A stretch of 64,000 bases of DNA from Polaromonas sp. A23 (GTDB lineage: Bacteria > Pseudomonadota > Gammaproteobacteria > Burkholderiales > Burkholderiaceae_C). The notes beneath the pieces are model-generated. The model ran no database searches. It was given only the letters and a program-made list of their open reading frames with translations, and was not told the DNA's origin. A program made the position numbers and the translations under genes. Where the stretch lies: the NCBI RefSeq assembly GCF_002001015.1, contig NZ_MUNO01000004.1, positions 62,001-126,000 of the forward strand, read 5' to 3'. This document shows, piece after piece, positions 4,997 through 40,534 of the stretch; the stretch's first letter is position 1, and the number at the start of each line of letters is the position of its first letter.

Positions 4997-5014
4997 AGCT
5001 ATAAAAAAAGTAGC
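4997..5014. repeat. AGCTAT-type mini-palindrome, dctP 3' end
   Basis: GCTAT at 4998-5002 and GTAGC at 5010-5014 flank an A-rich loop, with one mismatch to a perfect GCTAT/ATAGC palindrome. It belongs to a set of similar elements at 40790, 41530, 58189 and 60566. Confidence 0.5.
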
Positions 5015-5026
5015 GAACGAAGCGGT

Positions 5027-6013
5027 TTATTTGACGCTGCGAATTTTCTCTATGTTCGCTTTGCCGAACTGCTTCTCGAACTCGGCATTGACAGGTGCCA
5101 GGGCGGCAACGAACTTGCTTTTGTCCACGTTGTCGATCACGGTCATGCCCTTGGCGCGCAGGTCGGCGACACCCTTGGCATCGTCTTCGTCGACGCGAGC
5201 GCGGTTGGCTTTGGTGCCTTCTGCGGCTGCTTCGAGAAAAGCCTTTTTGTCGGCAGCGCTGAGCTTCTCAAAGACCCCTTTGTTCATGACCCAGATGCAG
5301 GGTGAATAAACGTGGCCGGTCAGGGACAGGTGTTTTTGAACCTGGTCGAACTTGGCCGCAATGATGACGGACAGCGGATTTTCCTGGCCGTCAACCGTGC
5401 CCTGCTGCAGCGCGGTGAACACTTCGGGGAAAGCCATGGGCGTGGTGACAATGCCGAAACCCTTGTAGGCCGCGATGTGCACCGGGTTTTCCATGGTGCG
5501 CATTTTCAGACCCTTCAGGTCCTCAGGCGCTTTCACGTCGCGCTTGCTGTTGGTCATGTGGCGGAAGCCGTTCTCTGCCCAGCCCAGCGCCTTGAAGCCT
5601 TTGGCGTCGAACTTGGTCAGCAGGTCCTGACCGATAGGTCCGTCCAATACGGCGCGTGCATGGGGCTTGTCGCGAAACAGGAAAGGCACATCCAGGATTT
5701 TGGTGTCGGGCACAAAGTTGGGAACGGGGCCCGTCGACGAGAAAGCCAGTTCCTGGGTACCGAGTTGCACAGCTTCTATGGACTCGCGTTCACCGCCGAG
5801 CGAGCCGTTGTAGAAGGTTTGAACCTTGTAGCGGCCACCGGTGCGCTTTTCCACTTCCCGGGCGAAGGTATCAATGGCCACGCCCTGATGGGAGTTTTGT
5901 GCCGTCGAGATGCTGATTTTCATCGTCGTCTGCGCGGCGGCACCAGCCACCAGGCCAAGCGCGAGGGTGACGGCCATTGCAACCCCGGAAAGCGTGGGTT
6001 TTAAAAAAGTCAT
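5027..6013 (-). CDS. dctP: TRAP transporter periplasmic solute-binding protein (DctP family)
   Basis: This 328-residue exported binding protein delivers substrate to DctQM. It has an N-terminal signal peptide, cleaved near AGAAAQ. DctP-family motifs visible are FYNGSLGGERESIEAVQLGT, RTMENPVHIAAYKGFG (contains the arginine that usually binds the substrate carboxylate) and FTALQQGTVDGQENPL. ATG 6013 is chosen because AAGGAGAC precedes it; the open frame upstream has no signal-peptide character. It lies 56 bp after a DenD-like dehydrogenase gene, which suggests a small sugar-acid substrate such as an erythronate or threonate. The substrate cannot be read from sequence alone. Confidence 0.93.
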   Translation of the reverse strand: MTFLKPTLSGVAMAVTLALGLVAGAAAQTTMKISISTAQNSHQGVAIDTFAREVEKRTGGRYKVQTFYNGSLGGERESIEAVQLGTQELAFSSTGPVPNFVPDTKILDVPFLFRDKPHARAVLDGPIGQDLLTKFDAKGFKALGWAENGFRHMTNSKRDVKAPEDLKGLKMRTMENPVHIAAYKGFGIVTTPMAFPEVFTALQQGTVDGQENPLSVIIAAKFDQVQKHLSLTGHVYSPCIWVMNKGVFEKLSAADKKAFLEAAAEGTKANRARVDEDDAKGVADLRAKGMTVIDNVDKSKFVAALAPVNAEFEKQFGKANIEKIRSVK

Positions 6014-33960: not shown

Positions 33961-36273
33961 TCAGAGGGTTACGGTGAAGCAGGCGCCCTGGCCAGGGGCG
34001 CTGCGCACATCAATGCTTCCGCCGTGCAGCTCGACCGAGTTCTTCACGATGGCCAGGCCCAGCCCGGTGCCCTGGATGTCACCCACATTGCTGGCGCGGT
34101 GGAAGGACTGGAAAAGATGGGGAATTTCTTCGGTCGGAATGCCGATGCCCCGGTCCTGCACCTCGAACACGGTGCGGCCGTCCTGCCTGGAAACGTCCAG
34201 GCTGACCTTGCCACCCTGCGGCGAGTACTTGATGGCGTTGGACAGCAGGTTGCCCAGGATGTGACGCAGCAGCTTGGCATCGAAGACACCGGCGGACACC
34301 TCCGGGGAAAACTGCGTCTCTATTTCGCAGTTGGTCTTGGGCAGGAGGAAGCGCGCTTCTTGCACGATGTCGCGGCAAAGCGCCAGGAGGTCCGTCTGCT
34401 GCGGCCGGAACTCCAGCATCTGCGCGTCCACCTGGCCTATCAGCAAGGCGCGGTCCAGCATCCTGGCCATGCGCTGGACACCGGCGCCTATGCTGTTGAG
34501 TATTTCAAGTCTCTCTTCCGCAGGCATCCGGTCGCTGTAGTCCCTGACGAGCTCCGACGCCGACAGGATGGCCGCGAGCGGTGTCCTGAACTCATGGCTG
34601 GTCATGGACACAAAACGCGAGCGCAGGTCGTTGAGTTCCTTTTCACGTTCCAGGGCGGCGCGGATGTTGTCTTCCGCGCGCCGGCGCTCGGTGATGTCCA
34701 GCAGCGTCCAGATCACGCCGGCCGAAGGGGTGCGGTCCACCACGCAGCGGCCGGCCAGCTGCATCCACACCGCCTCGCCGCCGCGGCGCAGGAAGCGCCG
34801 CTCGTCCACGTAAACACCATCACGCAACAAGGCTTCGCGCGTCACGCGGCCATCGGCTTCGAAAGTCTCGTCGTCCGGGTAGAGCAGCCGCGACGACTGA
34901 CCTACCAGCTCCTGGCGCGAGTAGCCCGTTATTTCCAGATACTTGTCGTTTATCCACTGGATGCGCCGGTCCACGTTGAAGCTGATGCCCACCAGCGCGC
35001 TGTTGAAGATGGCTTCGCGTTCCGACGAGGTTTTCTCGAGCGCGGCTTCCAACGCCTTGCGTTCCGTGATGTCCATCACTGCCCAGACCGTTCCCTGGGT
35101 CCTGTCGAGAATGCTGACGGCCTTGCCGGAGGCGGTGACCCAGAACAGGCTGCCGTCAAGCTTGCGCATCCGCAGGTCGTTCTGGTAGGCGCGGCCCTCG
35201 CTCATGCAGTCCGCGATATCCCTGGCCACACGGGTGTATTCGGCCTCTGACTCGAACAGCTCGCTCCAGTGGGCCGGTGCGGTTGCGCCGGGGGCGATGC
35301 CGAAAATTTTCGACAGCGCCTGGTTGGACCAGCGGAAAGTGTCGGCACTCGTGAGGAAGGCAATGCCGACCAGCGAGTTTTCAAGAATGGTCTCTCGCTC
35401 TTCCAGGGTGTCGCGCAGCTTTTCCTCAAGGGCTCTTTTTTCGCTGATGTCCGAGAAAAAGGTGAGGGTGGCCTGCTCGCCGTCCCAGGGAACCACCGTC
35501 ACGCTGATGCCTATCCAGCGGATGGTCCCATCGGGCAACAGCAGCCGAAGTTCATAGCGGCTGGGCGCATCTTCGCCGGCCAGGCGTTTGCGCTGGCGCT
35601 CCAGCACCAGGGCGTGGTCATCGGGGTGGATGCGGTGCAGGAAACCGATCTGCTGCATGTCCTGCGGAGACATGCCGGCTATCTCGGCAGCCCTTGCGTT
35701 GGAATAGGCCACCTTCTGGTCTTTCACCACAATCATGCCTTCACTGACATGTTCGACCACGGCACGGTACTTTTCCTCCGAGCCGCGCAGTGCCTGCTCC
35801 ACCGAGCGCCTGCCGGAGACGTCGCGGATGAAGGCGCCGAAGCTGTTGGTCCCATCGCCCCGCACGGTGAAGATGGAAAGTTCGATGGCGATCAGCGAGC
35901 CATTCTTGTGCAGCGCTTCGATCTCCAGCAGCCGGTTGGCGGTGTTTGCCTCGCCGGTTTCCAGGTGCGCCGCGAAACTGGTTTCGTACGCTTCGCGGTA
36001 TTTGTCCGGAACGATCAGGTCGCCCATCTGCCGGTCAACAGCCTCCCCGGCGTTCCAGCCCAGCATCCGTTCGGCACTGAGATTCCAGTGGGTGATGGTT
36101 CCGCTGGCGTCCAGTTCCAGCACCGCATCGCGTGCGGAATCCAGCAGTGAGGTGAGGTGGCGTTGCCTGGCCTCCAGCGCCTTGATGGTCGCTGCCTGGC
36201 TGGCGATGACATCCTCTGCGGATCCGGGCTCCGGCGGCGCGGTGGCTGCGGGTCGTGGGGACTGTTTATTCAT
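33961..36273 (-). CDS. Multi-PAS sensor histidine kinase (soluble)
   Basis: This 770-residue kinase has no membrane helix or signal peptide, so it should sense a cytoplasmic cue. About four PAS/PAC units cover residues 30-535; repeated WTLLDITERRRAED-type linker motifs mark their ends. A HisKA domain follows, with the phosphoacceptor His560 in SHEFRTPLAAIL. The HATPase domain has HILGNLLSNAIKYSP and GIGIPTEEIPHLFQSFHRA. It is divergent from the GlrR-like regulator gene, 221 bp apart, and is the obvious candidate partner. It does not resemble the membrane kinase GlrK of enterobacteria. Confidence 0.93.
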   Translation of the reverse strand: MNKQSPRPAATAPPEPGSAEDVIASQAATIKALEARQRHLTSLLDSARDAVLELDASGTITHWNLSAERMLGWNAGEAVDRQMGDLIVPDKYREAYETSFAAHLETGEANTANRLLEIEALHKNGSLIAIELSIFTVRGDGTNSFGAFIRDVSGRRSVEQALRGSEEKYRAVVEHVSEGMIVVKDQKVAYSNARAAEIAGMSPQDMQQIGFLHRIHPDDHALVLERQRKRLAGEDAPSRYELRLLLPDGTIRWIGISVTVVPWDGEQATLTFFSDISEKRALEEKLRDTLEERETILENSLVGIAFLTSADTFRWSNQALSKIFGIAPGATAPAHWSELFESEAEYTRVARDIADCMSEGRAYQNDLRMRKLDGSLFWVTASGKAVSILDRTQGTVWAVMDITERKALEAALEKTSSEREAIFNSALVGISFNVDRRIQWINDKYLEITGYSRQELVGQSSRLLYPDDETFEADGRVTREALLRDGVYVDERRFLRRGGEAVWMQLAGRCVVDRTPSAGVIWTLLDITERRRAEDNIRAALEREKELNDLRSRFVSMTSHEFRTPLAAILSASELVRDYSDRMPAEERLEILNSIGAGVQRMARMLDRALLIGQVDAQMLEFRPQQTDLLALCRDIVQEARFLLPKTNCEIETQFSPEVSAGVFDAKLLRHILGNLLSNAIKYSPQGGKVSLDVSRQDGRTVFEVQDRGIGIPTEEIPHLFQSFHRASNVGDIQGTGLGLAIVKNSVELHGGSIDVRSAPGQGACFTVTL

Positions 36274-36494: not shown

Positions 36495-37841
36495 ATGGCG
36501 CGTATTCTGATCGTCGACGACGACCCGGCCCTGCTGAGGCTGCTGTCCCTTCGCCTTCATTACGAAGGCCACACGGCCATAGAGGCGGGCAGCGGTGCGG
36601 CCGCGCTTGCCCGGTTGGACCAGGAGTTGCCGCACATTCTCATCACCGATCTGCGCATGCCCGGCATGGACGGCTTGCAGCTGTTCGAGGCTGTTCACCG
36701 CCGTTTTCCGCTCTTGCCGGTTCTGATCCTGACGGCCAATGGCACGATTCCAGACGCGGTGCATGCCATGCAGCGCGGTGTTTTCGGCTATGTGACGAAA
36801 CCCTTTGAAGGCCTGGACCTGATGCGCGAAGTGGACCGGGCACTGGAGGCGTCTTCCACGCTGGGCGCGGACATGCCCGGTGAGTTGCCCGGCGAAGCCT
36901 GGCGGGAAGCCATCATCACGCGCAGTCCGCGCATGGAAAAACTTCTGGCCGAGGCACGTCTCATGGCACAAAGCGATGCCTCGGTGCTGATCCACGGCCA
37001 GAGTGGCACCGGCAAAGAGCTGCTGGCGCGCGCCCTGCATGCTTCCAGTGCACGGCATCAGGAAGCGCTGGTGGCCGTGAACTGCGGCGCGATACCGGAA
37101 AACCTGGTCGAGTCGGAGCTCTTCGGCCACGTCAAGGGTGCCTTCACCGGTGCGGTGCGCGACAGCGTGGGTTTGTTCACCAGCGCACACCGCGGCACGA
37201 TCTTCCTGGATGAAGTGGCCGACCTGCCGCTGGCCATGCAGGTCAAGCTGCTGCGTGTCCTGCAGGAGCGGGAAGTGCGCCCGGTAGGGGCGGCCAAGTC
37301 CCACAAGGTCGATGTGCGCGTGATCTCGGCTTCCAACCGCAGGCTGGAGGACGAAGTGGCAGCCGGCCGTTTCCGCGAAGATCTTTTTTACCGCCTCCAT
37401 GTGGTGGGCCTGAACCTGCCGCCGCTGGCCGAACGCCGCGAGGACATTCCCCTGCTGGCCAACCATTTCATGCGCAGCCTGTCGCTGCGCTACGCCAAAT
37501 CACTGACCGCGTTTGCGCCGGGCGCGCTTGAACAGCTCAGCACCGCGCCCTGGCCGGGCAATGTGCGGCAACTGCAAAACGTGGTCGAAAAATGCGTGGT
37601 GCTGTGTACCGGATCGCTCATTCCGGCTGCCCTGGTGCAAAGCGCGTTGACCAGCCAGGGCGGGGAAATGCTGCCGCTGGACGAGGCCCGCAAGGAGTTT
37701 GAACGTGACTACTTGACGCGGCTGCTGAAGATCACCAATGGCAATGTCACCCAGGCCGCCAAGCTCGCCCGCCGCAACCGGACGGATTTTTATGCCTTGC
37801 TGGCCCGCCACCAGCTAGACGCCGCCAGCTTCAAGGCCTGA
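36495..37841 (+). CDS. glrR: Sigma-54-dependent response regulator, GlrR/QseF-like
   Basis: This 448-residue NtrC-type enhancer-binding protein has a receiver domain with phosphoacceptor Asp52 (LITDLRMPG), an AAA+ domain and a DNA-binding C-terminus. The AAA+ part has Walker A HGQSGTGKELLARA (about 166-179) and the sigma-54 contact loop GAFTGA (about 215-220). The Q in GQSGTGKE and the C-terminal NRTDFYALLARHQLDAASF closely match what I recall of Escherichia coli GlrR, supporting this subfamily. ATG 36495 follows GGGGAAC; 21 open codons upstream lack similarity. The downstream region holds two GlrR-type sites and a -24/-12 promoter. Confidence 0.85.
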   Translation: MARILIVDDDPALLRLLSLRLHYEGHTAIEAGSGAAALARLDQELPHILITDLRMPGMDGLQLFEAVHRRFPLLPVLILTANGTIPDAVHAMQRGVFGYVTKPFEGLDLMREVDRALEASSTLGADMPGELPGEAWREAIITRSPRMEKLLAEARLMAQSDASVLIHGQSGTGKELLARALHASSARHQEALVAVNCGAIPENLVESELFGHVKGAFTGAVRDSVGLFTSAHRGTIFLDEVADLPLAMQVKLLRVLQEREVRPVGAAKSHKVDVRVISASNRRLEDEVAAGRFREDLFYRLHVVGLNLPPLAERREDIPLLANHFMRSLSLRYAKSLTAFAPGALEQLSTAPWPGNVRQLQNVVEKCVVLCTGSLIPAALVQSALTSQGGEMLPLDEARKEFERDYLTRLLKITNGNVTQAAKLARRNRTDFYALLARHQLDAASFKA

Positions 37842-37864
37842 GCGCGCCTTGCGCCGTGTTCAGC

Positions 37865-37882
37865 TGTCTGTATTGACAGACA
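37865..37882 (+). promoter_or_regulatory. Candidate GlrR-type upstream activating site 1
   Basis: TGTC (37865-37868), ten bases, GACA (37879-37882) match the TGTC-N10-GACA consensus known for enterobacterial GlrR exactly. The site is embedded in a perfect 8-4-8 inverted repeat (37864-37883). Its centre lies about 155 bp upstream of the predicted globin transcription start, a normal distance for a sigma-54 enhancer. No T-run follows, arguing against it being only the glrR terminator. Confidence 0.7.
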
Positions 37883-37930
37883 GGCTACATCTCTGATTTC
37901 ACACGCTTTTTTGCTAATGGCCACCCTGGC

Positions 37931-37948
37931 TGTCGGTGAAACCCGACA
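37931..37948 (+). promoter_or_regulatory. Candidate GlrR-type upstream activating site 2
   Basis: A second exact TGTC-N10-GACA (TGTC 37931-37934, GACA 37945-37948) lies 66 bp, centre to centre, from site 1 and on the same side of the promoter. The sequence around it is TGTCGG...CCGACA, so the half-sites pair over six bases. Confidence 0.7.
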
Positions 37949-38001
37949 CTGTTGCCAAGGAGGGGCGCGTGCAAGTCATTGATTTCATTGGAAAAGGGGG
38001 G

Positions 38002-38016
38002 TGGCACGCATCTTGG
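38002..38016 (+). promoter_or_regulatory. Sigma-54 (-24/-12) promoter of the globin gene
   Basis: TGGCACG-CATC-TTGG matches the sigma-54 consensus TGGCACG-N4-TTGC except the last base. Spacing is exact. The predicted start lies near 38028, about 28 bp ahead of the globin ATG. The C-to-G change in the -12 element is the weak point. Confidence 0.65.
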
Positions 38017-38055
38017 GTAGCAGTGGGGGTCCAACCCGCTTACCCAAGGAAACCC

Positions 38056-38490
38056 ATGAACTCCGAACAAATCAATCTTGTGCAATCCAGTTTCAAGGAT
38101 GTGCGCCCCATCGCTGCGCTTACAGCTGACATTTTTTATACCCGCCTGTTTGTGCTGGACCCGTCGCTGCGGACCATGTTCAAGGGCGACCTGGTCGACC
38201 AGGGACGCATGTTGATGTCCATGCTCAGTACGGCCGTCAACGGCCTGACGAACCTGGACGCCACTGTGCCGGTTGTGCGCCAGCTGGGCATGCGCCACGC
38301 GAAGTATGGCGTGCAGGACGAGCATTTCGACACGGTGGGCAGTGCACTGCTCTGGACGCTGGAGCAGGGGCTGGGCGAAAAATTCACGGCCGATGTGCGT
38401 GAAGCGTGGACTGCGGCCTACGCACTGCTGGCCAGCGTGATGCAGCTGGGTCTCATCGAAGCCCGGTCGCAGCAAGCGGCCGCGGCCTGA
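38056..38490 (+). CDS. Single-domain bacterial globin (Vitreoscilla-hemoglobin type)
   Basis: The 144-residue haem protein aligns along its length with Vitreoscilla hemoglobin. The proximal histidine is His81 (MRHAKYGVQDEHF), the B10 tyrosine is Tyr28 (DIFYTRLF), and a distal Gln49 lies in the expected place. It lacks the FAD/NAD reductase domain of flavohemoglobins. Likely roles are oxygen or NO handling in the cytoplasm. AAGGAAACCC precedes the ATG. It follows the GlrR-like gene by 214 bp and has its own predicted sigma-54 promoter, and is followed 15 bp later by a small membrane protein gene. Confidence 0.92.
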   Translation: MNSEQINLVQSSFKDVRPIAALTADIFYTRLFVLDPSLRTMFKGDLVDQGRMLMSMLSTAVNGLTNLDATVPVVRQLGMRHAKYGVQDEHFDTVGSALLWTLEQGLGEKFTADVREAWTAAYALLASVMQLGLIEARSQQAAAA

Positions 38491-38505
38491 GCGAGGCCTT
38501 CTGCC

Positions 38506-38871
38506 ATGAAAGCTATTGCCAATTTCAAAAGCGATTCAGGCTACCGCGTGAACGCCCACACCATGCGCACCACCGCCTTCCACCGGCCACGCGGCACCGG
38601 CCTCGTGCTTGCGCTCGTGGCCATCATCCTGGTTGCAGGCTCGGCCCTGATCGCCCATGGCATTGCCCAGGCTGGCGGGATCGAACCGTTTGAGAAACCC
38701 GCTGCTTCCGCCAAACCGGTTCCAGGTGCTGCCGTGGTGATAGACCACTCATCCCTGGCCACATCGACCCTGTTGCCCGAGCCCGATGCGTCCCTGCTGC
38801 ATTCGGATCCCACTGCGTATCTGAATGCGAATGGGCCGGCGCCTGTCAAGGCGCTTCGGGCCGCTTTGTGA
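38506..38871 (+). CDS. Hypothetical single-pass membrane protein downstream of globin
   Basis: The 121-residue protein has a basic N-terminus and one hydrophobic helix at about residues 32-56. A Pro/Ala-rich part without recognisable domains follows. It begins 15 bp after the globin stop, so it probably shares the globin transcript. No family is recognised. A later in-frame ATG (residue 20, MRTTAFHRPRG) is a possible start. Confidence 0.6.
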   Translation: MKAIANFKSDSGYRVNAHTMRTTAFHRPRGTGLVLALVAIILVAGSALIAHGIAQAGGIEPFEKPAASAKPVPGAAVVIDHSSLATSTLLPEPDASLLHSDPTAYLNANGPAPVKALRAAL

Positions 38872-39025: not shown

Positions 39026-40534
39026 ATGAGTCAACACCCCCCTCTGACCACCGCGTCCGGCATCCCCGTCGTCGACAACCAGAACAGCCTCAGCGCAGGT
39101 CCGCGAGGCCCGCTTCTGCTGCAGGACTTTCACCTGATCGAGAAACTCCAGCACTTCAACCGCGAACGCATTCCCGAGCGCGTGGTCCACGCCAAAGGCT
39201 CCGGCGCCTACGGCACTTTCACAGTGACCCATGACATCAGCCGGTACACCAAAGCCCGTTTGTTCAATGCCGTGGGCAAGAAGACGGAAACCTTTGTCCG
39301 CTTTTCCACGGTGGGCGGTGAAAAGGGCAGCGCCGACACCGAACGCGATCCGCGCGGCTTCGCCATGCGCTTCTATACCGAAGAGGGCAACTGGGACCTG
39401 GTGGGCAACAACACGCCCATGTTCTTCATCAAGGATCCGATCAAGTTTCCCGACTTTGTGCACACGCAAAAGCGCGACCCACAGACCAACCTGAAGTCGG
39501 CCCAGATGATGTGGGACTTCTGGAGCAAGGCGCCCGAGTCACTGCACCAGGTCACGATGTTGTTCAGCGACCGTGGCACGCCCGACGGCTATCGGCATAT
39601 GGATGGTTTCGGCAGCCATACCTTCAGCCTGATCAACGCTGCGGGTGAGCGTGTCTGGGCCAAGTGGCACCTGAAGACGAAGCAGGGCATCAAGAACCTG
39701 AGCGCCGACGAAGCCGCGCGCCTGGCGGGCACTGACCCCGATCACGCGCAGCGTGACCTGTTTAACGCCATTGCCGCGGGCAACTTCCCGCAGTGGGACG
39801 TGTCCATTCAGGTCATGACCGAAGCCGAGGCTGTGGCCTGGGAAAACCGCACGGGCTGGAACCCGTTTGACCTGACCAAGGTCTGGCCATACGGCGATTT
39901 CCCGCGCATTCCCGTCGGCGTGCTCGAGCTCAACCGCAACCCCGACAACTACCACGCGCACGTCGAGCAGGCGGCGTTCTCGCCGGCCAACATCGTGCCG
40001 GGCATGGGCTACAGCCCCGACAAGATGCTGCAGGGGCGCCTCTTTGCGTACCACGACGCGCAGCTGTACCGCGTGGGCACCAATCACCAGCACCTGCCGG
40101 TGAATCGCGCGCGCTGCCCCTTCCACAACCAGCAGCGCGACGGCCAGATGGCGATCGACAACGGCGGTTCAGCGCAAAACTATGAGACCGTTGCGGCGGC
40201 CGGTACTTCGCCGAGCGGGCTGGGCCATGGCGACGCGGGCCTGTCACTCAACGGGATGGCAGGGCGGTATGACGAGCGTGGCACCTCGGACGATTTCACC
40301 CAGGCGGGCAACCTGTTCCGCGTGATGAAGCCGGACGCGCAGGACCGACTGACCAGCAACATTGCGGGTGCCTTGAAGGATGTGAGCAGGGACGTCCAGC
40401 AGGTGCAGATCGGCCACTTCACCAAGGCCGACCCGGCCTATGGCGCGGCAGTGGCGCGCAAGCTGGCGGCCCTGGCGGCGGCGAGTGTCCAGGCAGCCAA
40501 GCCGCTGTCCGTGGCAAAAGAGGCCGTGGCATGA
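39026..40534 (+). CDS. katA: Monofunctional haem catalase
   Basis: This 502-residue enzyme breaks down hydrogen peroxide. Catalytic residues are visible: His55 in ERVVHAKGSGAYGTF, Asn128 in DLVGNNTPMFF, and the haem-ligand tyrosine in GRLFAYHDAQLYRVG. Length fits small-subunit catalases. ATG 39026 follows GCAGGAGT; the frame is open upstream but lacks similarity. A possible -35 box TTGACT lies at 38951. I saw no clear OxyR motif. Its neighbours (globin, AhpD-like protein nearby) are consistent with oxidative or nitrosative stress defence. Confidence 0.95.
   Translation: MSQHPPLTTASGIPVVDNQNSLSAGPRGPLLLQDFHLIEKLQHFNRERIPERVVHAKGSGAYGTFTVTHDISRYTKARLFNAVGKKTETFVRFSTVGGEKGSADTERDPRGFAMRFYTEEGNWDLVGNNTPMFFIKDPIKFPDFVHTQKRDPQTNLKSAQMMWDFWSKAPESLHQVTMLFSDRGTPDGYRHMDGFGSHTFSLINAAGERVWAKWHLKTKQGIKNLSADEAARLAGTDPDHAQRDLFNAIAAGNFPQWDVSIQVMTEAEAVAWENRTGWNPFDLTKVWPYGDFPRIPVGVLELNRNPDNYHAHVEQAAFSPANIVPGMGYSPDKMLQGRLFAYHDAQLYRVGTNHQHLPVNRARCPFHNQQRDGQMAIDNGGSAQNYETVAAAGTSPSGLGHGDAGLSLNGMAGRYDERGTSDDFTQAGNLFRVMKPDAQDRLTSNIAGALKDVSRDVQQVQIGHFTKADPAYGAAVARKLAALAAASVQAAKPLSVAKEAVA

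Follow-up and report, generated by a model that had tools for sequence, protein, structure and literature searches.

A GlrR paralog with diverged operators predicted to control a single-domain globin gene in Polaromonas sp. A23

What controls a single-domain bacterial globin gene that lies directly behind a GlrR-like regulator gene, and is that regulator GlrR itself? The question arises from a 64,000-nt stretch of the Polaromonas sp. A23 genome (contig NZ_MUNO01000004.1, positions 62,001 to 126,000; hereafter the window), in which the open reading frame (ORF) at 36495-37841, encoding a sigma-54 activator, is followed by two exact TGTC-N10-GACA palindromes, a predicted -24/-12 promoter and the globin gene. 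Judged from its sequence, the activator is a paralog of GlrR, i.e. a duplicated and re-specialised copy, and it very probably belongs to a local, phosphorylation-dependent two-component sigma-54 switch dedicated to the globin. We refer to relatives of this ORF as window-type regulators, set apart from GlrR proper, and to the genome containing the window as the window genome (G000 among the compared genomes).

Twin palindromes between regulator and globin genes

The elements concerned are, in window coordinates:
33961-36273, minus strand: sensor histidine kinase, 770 amino acids (aa), with several PAS domains, HisKA and HATPase_c (Pfam)
36495-37841, plus strand: response regulator and sigma-54 activator, GlrR paralog, 448 aa (Pfam, NCBIfam, tree)
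37776-37811, plus strand: predicted recognition-helix segment NRTDFYALLARH, residues 428-439, with D431, A434 and A437 (from aligning 8 window-type with 37 GlrR proteins)
37865-37882, no strand: distal palindrome TGTCTGTATTGACAGACA, proposed enhancer (motif scan, conservation)
37931-37948, no strand: proximal palindrome TGTCGGTGAAACCCGACA, proposed enhancer, ending 53 bp upstream of the -24 TGG (motif scan, conservation)
37972-37984, minus strand: integration host factor (IHF)-type site AATCAATGACTTG (match to the consensus WATCAANNNNTTR)
37979-37991, plus strand: conserved TTGATTTCATTGG box, overlapping the IHF-type site (promoter comparison)
38002-38016, plus strand: predicted -24/-12 promoter TGGCACGCATCTTGG (motif scan, conservation)
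38056-38490, plus strand: single-domain globin, 144 aa (Pfam Globin, PDB relatives)

Kinase and regulator form a divergent pair, and the 214-bp gap between the regulator and globin genes holds the palindromes, the box and the promoter. Thus, a -24/-12 element, paired upstream sites and a candidate bending site between them are all present at the sequence level, and the -12 element predicts a transcript 5′ end near 38028. What we take to be the IHF consensus, WATCAANNNNTTR, was found in full in 6 of 10 window-type promoters examined and TTGATT[T/C] in all ten compared, while the TTGG form of the promoter recurs at L044, L045, L046, L047 and L055.

As the initial annotation had described, the palindromes stand 66 bp apart (start to start) in enhancers-then-promoter order; they are the only exact copies in the window, and TGGCACG-N4-TTGG occurs once. 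Could such motifs have arisen by chance near an unrelated orphan sigma-54 regulator, leaving the globin with an ordinary promoter? The bare palindrome count is weak evidence, since 0.76 copies are expected in shuffled windows and 20 of 100 shuffles reach two; the promoter string was present in 12 of 100. Genome-wide, the single exact motif occurs at 58 places versus 37 for a backwards control. However, a pair spaced 30-60 bp apart is found at exactly two places in the genome (control, none), namely at the globin locus and directly after a GlrR-like gene on contig 14, i.e. after a GlrR-type gene each time, and a site followed within 40-70 bp by TGGCAY-N5-TTG occurs only at the globin locus (control, none). 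Given this rarity, together with an order and spacing conserved in other genera and families, we rule out a chance origin, which we consider extremely improbable.

Across 299 genomes of the same family, 44 pair places were found in 42 genomes, 30 of them less than 6 kb from a match to the regulator; the backwards pair turned up 33 times in 8 genomes, G027 alone accounting for 26. All five regulator-carrying genomes among the 299 combine a site, TTGATT[T/C]CA and a sigma-54 element, a combination absent from every other match listed for a site plus sigma-54 element (25 places in 22 genomes in all, 20 of them outside the five window-type genomes). Searching for the promoter-box pattern without the sites returned seven of the 299 genomes (control, none): G000, G134, G198, G243, G183, which has another NtrC-type regulator (44% identity), G206, with nothing related, and G052, with a weak regulator-like match only.

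A GlrR paralog beside GlrR proper

The initial annotation had proposed that this lineage wired a GlrR-type regulator to a globin instead of the known GlrR target. The family assignment stands. Pfam detects a receiver (PF00072) and a sigma-54 AAA+ domain (PF00158), and the translation contains GAFTGA, GQSGTGKE and the C-terminal NRTDFYALLARHQLDA as annotated, so that, with its C-terminal helix-turn-helix segment, the protein belongs to the NtrC class of sigma-54 activators. Its best NCBIfam model is GlrR, at 570 bits under a cut-off of 763; on the same model the E. coli GlrR passes with 982, and the window genome's GlrR proper falls short as well (602), so the cut-off alone cannot separate paralog from GlrR. 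Measured against E. coli K-12 GlrR, the window protein is 54% identical and the GlrR proper of its genome 57%.

It is the word "instead" that fails, because the same genome retains GlrR proper, complete with a kinase, a lipoprotein and twin sites of its own. On contig 14, a GlrK-like kinase (473 aa), a GlrG/QseG-like protein (210 aa) and the GlrR-like regulator are followed by two exact sites 67 bp apart, TTGGCACAGGGTTTGCC, and two genes that, going by sequence type, we take to be opgG and opgH; gene names here are given by likeness. A GlrR ortholog with a new target is thereby ruled out. Moreover, the window regulator is neighboured by a PAS kinase, the GlrK- and GlrG-like genes being on contig 14, and its operators share the outer TGTC/GACA bases with those of GlrR while position 6 of the half-site is not of the GlrR kind.

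In trees, the window type separates from GlrR. Eight window-type regulators fall on one side of a branch and 37 GlrR proteins on the other (100/100) in a 46-protein tree, which places the window type inside GlrR when rooted on a distant outgroup flagged for its long branch. With the E. coli GlrR as outgroup and six order-level relatives added, both groups remain whole (100/99 and 99/91, the window type at 100/99), and the window type stands beside this family's GlrR, near the regulators of other families (91/69). Since its placement shifts with the outgroup, the branching order relative to GlrR is not fixed.

GlrR-type loci number about 84 places, of which 37 were read with wide flanks. A glrK match was found in 36 of these 37 (at only 34-38% identity in three), a glrG match in 33, opgG and/or opgH downstream of glrR in 31, and at least one exact site less than 500 bp past glrR in 31. 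Judging by gene neighbourhood, this family's GlrR therefore probably acts locally on opgGH, which suggests periplasmic glucan synthesis as a GlrR-controlled function. Two genomes of a single genus also have twin sites of the GlrR kind at a great distance from glrR (G119, contig 47:108557-108642; G282, contig 19:261666-261751), possibly marking a second GlrR target.

The two regulators appear to read different operators. All 28 window-type half-sites counted have G at position 6 (14 hand-chosen sites at 8 loci; the sites L046 +2028 and L054 -2212 and -4831, numbered from the regulator end, are not among them), as do 6 of 6 from three further L044/L046 sites counted apart; at GlrR loci (40 sites) this position is C in 68, T in 9 and G in 3 of 80, and at E. 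coli glmY C in four, G in one and T in one. A Fisher value of 7e-23 for this difference is descriptive only, as the sequences are kin. Among six distinct unrelated exact motifs, admittedly a small set, position 6 reads A 6, C 3, G 2 and T 1 of 12, and this low background of G makes the case for operator specificity slightly stronger. The predicted recognition helix diverges in parallel: residue 431 is D in 8/8 window-type proteins versus E in 37/37 GlrR, residue 434 A in 8/8 versus R in 37/37, and residue 437 A in 7/8 versus Q in 35/37. In short, NRTDFYA and TGTC[G/T]G half-sites in the window type stand against NRTEFYK/R and mainly TGTCGC in GlrR (E. coli segment, NRTEFYKLLSRH). By analogy with the family, residues 428-439 would form the DNA-reading helix and may contact operator position 6.

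Could GlrR proper, alone or jointly, nevertheless drive the globin promoter, with the neighbouring regulator redundant or mainly controlling something else? Both operator kinds have the outer TGTC/GACA and both helices NRT and FY, one E. coli glmY half-site carries G at position 6, and the operons of window-type regulators are themselves apparent targets. However, the groups differ in position 6 and in the distance from site to promoter. The proximal palindrome ends 51-53 bp before the TGG in 12 of 12 window-type arrays examined; of the 37 GlrR loci, 24 show the promoter pattern, and at 15 of these 24 the gap measures 92-95 bp. In addition, at least 79 of the about 84 GlrR-type loci lie in genomes without a globin-type array. 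We regard control by GlrR proper as improbable. Different kinases, helices and operators argue instead that the window regulator and GlrR proper are probably insulated from each other, without cross-talk.

One cell would thus hold a natural pair of related sigma-54 activators: their operators are alike on the outside but not at one inner base, their helices differ to match, and beside each activator lies a single exact paired-site place, its only one in the genome. This offers a case for how duplicated enhancer-binding proteins stop cross-talking, and it predicts a regulator and an operator for a single-domain bacterial globin.

The array in relatives

Nine genomes were found to encode a window-type regulator: the window genome, that of Polaromonas sp. 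39-63-25 (L047, a metagenome-assembled genome, MAG), a Rhodoferax MAG (L044), a betaproteobacterial MAG (L046), G134, G198, and G243, G039 and G376 of genus g40. Beyond the window genome, palindrome(s), TTGATT box and sigma-54 element precede a globin gene in five of them (L044, L046, L047, G134 and G198), which backs the annotated unit of GlrR-like regulator, enhancer pair, promoter and globin and answers its call for a check of motif conservation at orthologous loci. The arrangement varies in detail: in G134 a hydrolase-like gene, named by eye, stands between array and globin, and in L044 a kinase gene with its own site and sigma-54 box separates the regulator from the globin array. The divergent kinase is matched at L047 by a 71% relative in the same position, and histidine-kinase relatives sit beside the regulator at other loci. 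In a second Rhodoferax MAG (L045), whose piece carries no regulator, a one-mismatch array is followed by an unknown gene and a globin of 68% identity.

Outside the family, 399 genomes of the order yielded two further relatives, G475 and G410 (63% identity), which join the window type in the tree (99/89 and 94/91), carry NRSDFYS in the helix and have a related kinase upstream of the regulator. In G475, TGTTGGCATTTGCCGACA and TGTTGGCATTTGCCAACA lie 67 bp apart; beyond them come an IHF-type site and TGGCACAGGCGTTGC, and at some further distance a globin of 51% identity. G410 has TGTTGGCTTGCGCCAACA and, 68 bp on, a second copy one base off with an IHF-type site upstream of it, then TGGCACGGTGACTGC, a small ORF with one transmembrane segment and a globin-like ORF (L196 7317-7739) that is strongly diverged, lacks clear haem-binding residues and was linked by eye only. 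The exact TGTC-N10-GACA motif is absent from both arrays, their twin palindromes being of a TGTTGG type, and the proximal palindrome lies 65-66 bp from the promoter. Kinase, regulator, twin palindromes and a globin or globin-like ORF are thus retained in two other families.

Conversely, we looked at 28 globin loci of the family that lack the regulator (L010, L072 and L075-L100; 47-66% identical): none has both an exact site within 1.5 kb and a TGGC-type element within 250 bp, two having a lone site about 700 bp upstream and one a lone sigma-54-like box.

The globin itself shows Pfam Globin over residues 27-129 of 144, a proximal His and no reductase domain, as befits a single-domain globin. 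Tyr28, Gln49 and His81 (presumably B10, E7 and F8) are conserved, His81 in 37 of 37 aligned rows after removal of L081 and L086, which have a stop inside the aligned stretch. The initial annotation had called it Vitreoscilla-type, a loose label for what is indeed a globin: the PDB entries 3wfw (E 3e-27) and 3s1i (7e-25), which we take to be globins of Methylacidiphilum, are closer than the Vitreoscilla-type 1vhb (1e-15).

Several observations weigh against a switch dedicated to the globin and read through this helix. The linked globins do not form a single supported clade (three changes), and the L047 globin (5001-5393) loses its likeness after about residue 107, with an altered or broken C-terminus. 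A single exact palindrome precedes the globin in L044 and L046, as opposed to two in the others. G243 and G039 have the array in front of a GGDEF-kinase-regulator operon, with no globin adjacent, and the G376 locus is cut by a contig end. Few genomes carry the regulator: 5 of 299 in the family and 2 of 81 in the genus. Finally, consistent differences between window-type regulators and GlrR number about 39 and are spread over the full length of the protein, so that the alignment does not single out the helix.

The array might accordingly serve mainly autoregulation or a GGDEF/kinase branch, with the globin a passenger acquired repeatedly. The g40 loci, the GGDEF promoters of L044 and L046 and the scattered globin tree speak for this; against it, the globin lies inside the predicted transcription unit in six of nine window-type genomes and at both outgroup loci (diverged in one). 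We consider a passenger globin unlikely, though less so than control by GlrR proper, and retain the dedicated globin switch. In L044 and L046, a further array (one palindrome with a mismatch), additional to that of the globin, precedes a related GGDEF gene. Array-type promoters before genes for such diguanylate cyclase-like proteins are seen at L044 5812-6825 and L046 5810-6843, and before the upstream operon at L052 and L053. By these promoters, the window-type regulator would be linked to cyclic di-GMP in several relatives. Taken together, the module is, on comparative grounds, real, with a narrow and patchy distribution.

A predicted switch and its precedents

How might the switch work? The adjacent PAS kinase, whose 19-residue hydropathy peaks at 1.18 and which is probably soluble, would be the regulator's partner and phosphorylate its receiver. 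The regulator would then bind the palindromes, as their conservation and co-variation with the helix suggest, IHF would bend the DNA at the TTGATT box and help looping, and the AAA+ domain would open sigma-54 RNA polymerase at 38002-38016, so that globin would be made when the signal is present. The globin target suggests oxygen, nitric oxide (NO) or redox state as that signal. This mechanism is the default, because published GlrR (QseF) uses such sites together with IHF and sigma-54, as described for E. coli and Proteus (PMC6075780, PMC8745638).

With the enterobacterial GlrK-QseG-GlrR system (QseEGF; targets glmY and rpoE), the window unit shares the regulator family, TGTC-N10-GACA, an IHF-type site and a sigma-54 promoter (PMC6075780, PMC8745638). 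Unlike enterobacterial GlrR, the window regulator has no adjacent GlrK/QseG, targets a globin and scores below the NCBIfam GlrR cut-off. It likewise resembles this family's glrK-glrG-glrR-opgGH cluster, where the regulator gene, too, is followed by two sites some 67 bp apart, with an IHF-type site and a sigma-54 promoter; the kinase, the target, the inner base of the operator and the distance to the promoter differ. The window regulator is thus set apart from GlrR proper by a PAS-type kinase as opposed to GlrK/QseG, by its DNA reading (D431/A434 with G6 versus C6) and by its predicted target, a globin and, in some relatives, a GGDEF protein or its own operon, as opposed to opgGH or glmY.

Sigma-54 activators beside globin-family genes have been described before. 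NorR and FhpR adjoin the flavohaemoglobin genes hmp/fhp, a Polaromonas hmp case having been predicted (PMC1274295), and the Vibrio NorR1 and NorR2 are paralogs with diverged sites (PMC3299288). However, NorR is an NO-binding activator with a GAF domain (PMC2941729) and GT-(N7)-AC sites, whereas the window protein has a phospho-receiver, no GAF domain in the Pfam scan, other sites and a single-domain globin next to it; it does not belong to NorR/FhpR. Myxococcus xanthus NmpRSTU includes an NtrC-like response regulator in a pathway proposed to sense oxygen via a globin (PMC6211767); there the globin is the kinase's sensor domain, and here it would be the target gene. Among the matches listed from open-licence PMC papers, neither a GlrR-family response regulator with a globin target nor GlrR with opgGH was found.

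The mechanism is conventional; the pattern of paralog divergence is unusually clean. It might reflect a GlrR duplicate that became an insulated globin and cyclic di-GMP switch via R/K434 to A/S and E431 to D, matched by C6 to G6, and was passed on together with its PAS kinase across several families of Burkholderiales, as a gas- or redox-responsive module, a scenario we put forward tentatively and rate at somewhat less than an even chance.

Two further genes follow the globin:
38506-38871, plus strand: 121-aa protein with one hydrophobic stretch, starting 15 bp past the globin stop
39026-40534, plus strand: catalase (Pfam Catalase)

The 121-aa ORF is probably co-transcribed with the globin. 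The initial annotation had counted this small membrane protein as part of the rewired target; as a conserved part of the module we reject it, since it was not found at the other loci scanned: tblastn over the compared loci returned the window copy only, and a scan of seven loci for small hydrophobic ORFs returned only an unrelated 91-aa ORF (G410) and part of a longer protein (L047). Nor was the catalase gene matched at the other loci searched.

Globin-family genes also occur in two other settings. In E. coli K-12 (L158), glrR-glnB adjoins hmp, probably by coincidence. In the window genome, a second globin with 56% identity (contig 10, 55000-68669, our locus L012; 8799-9218) lies beside ABC-transporter and sensor-type genes, which by eye look like a nitrate-uptake cluster.

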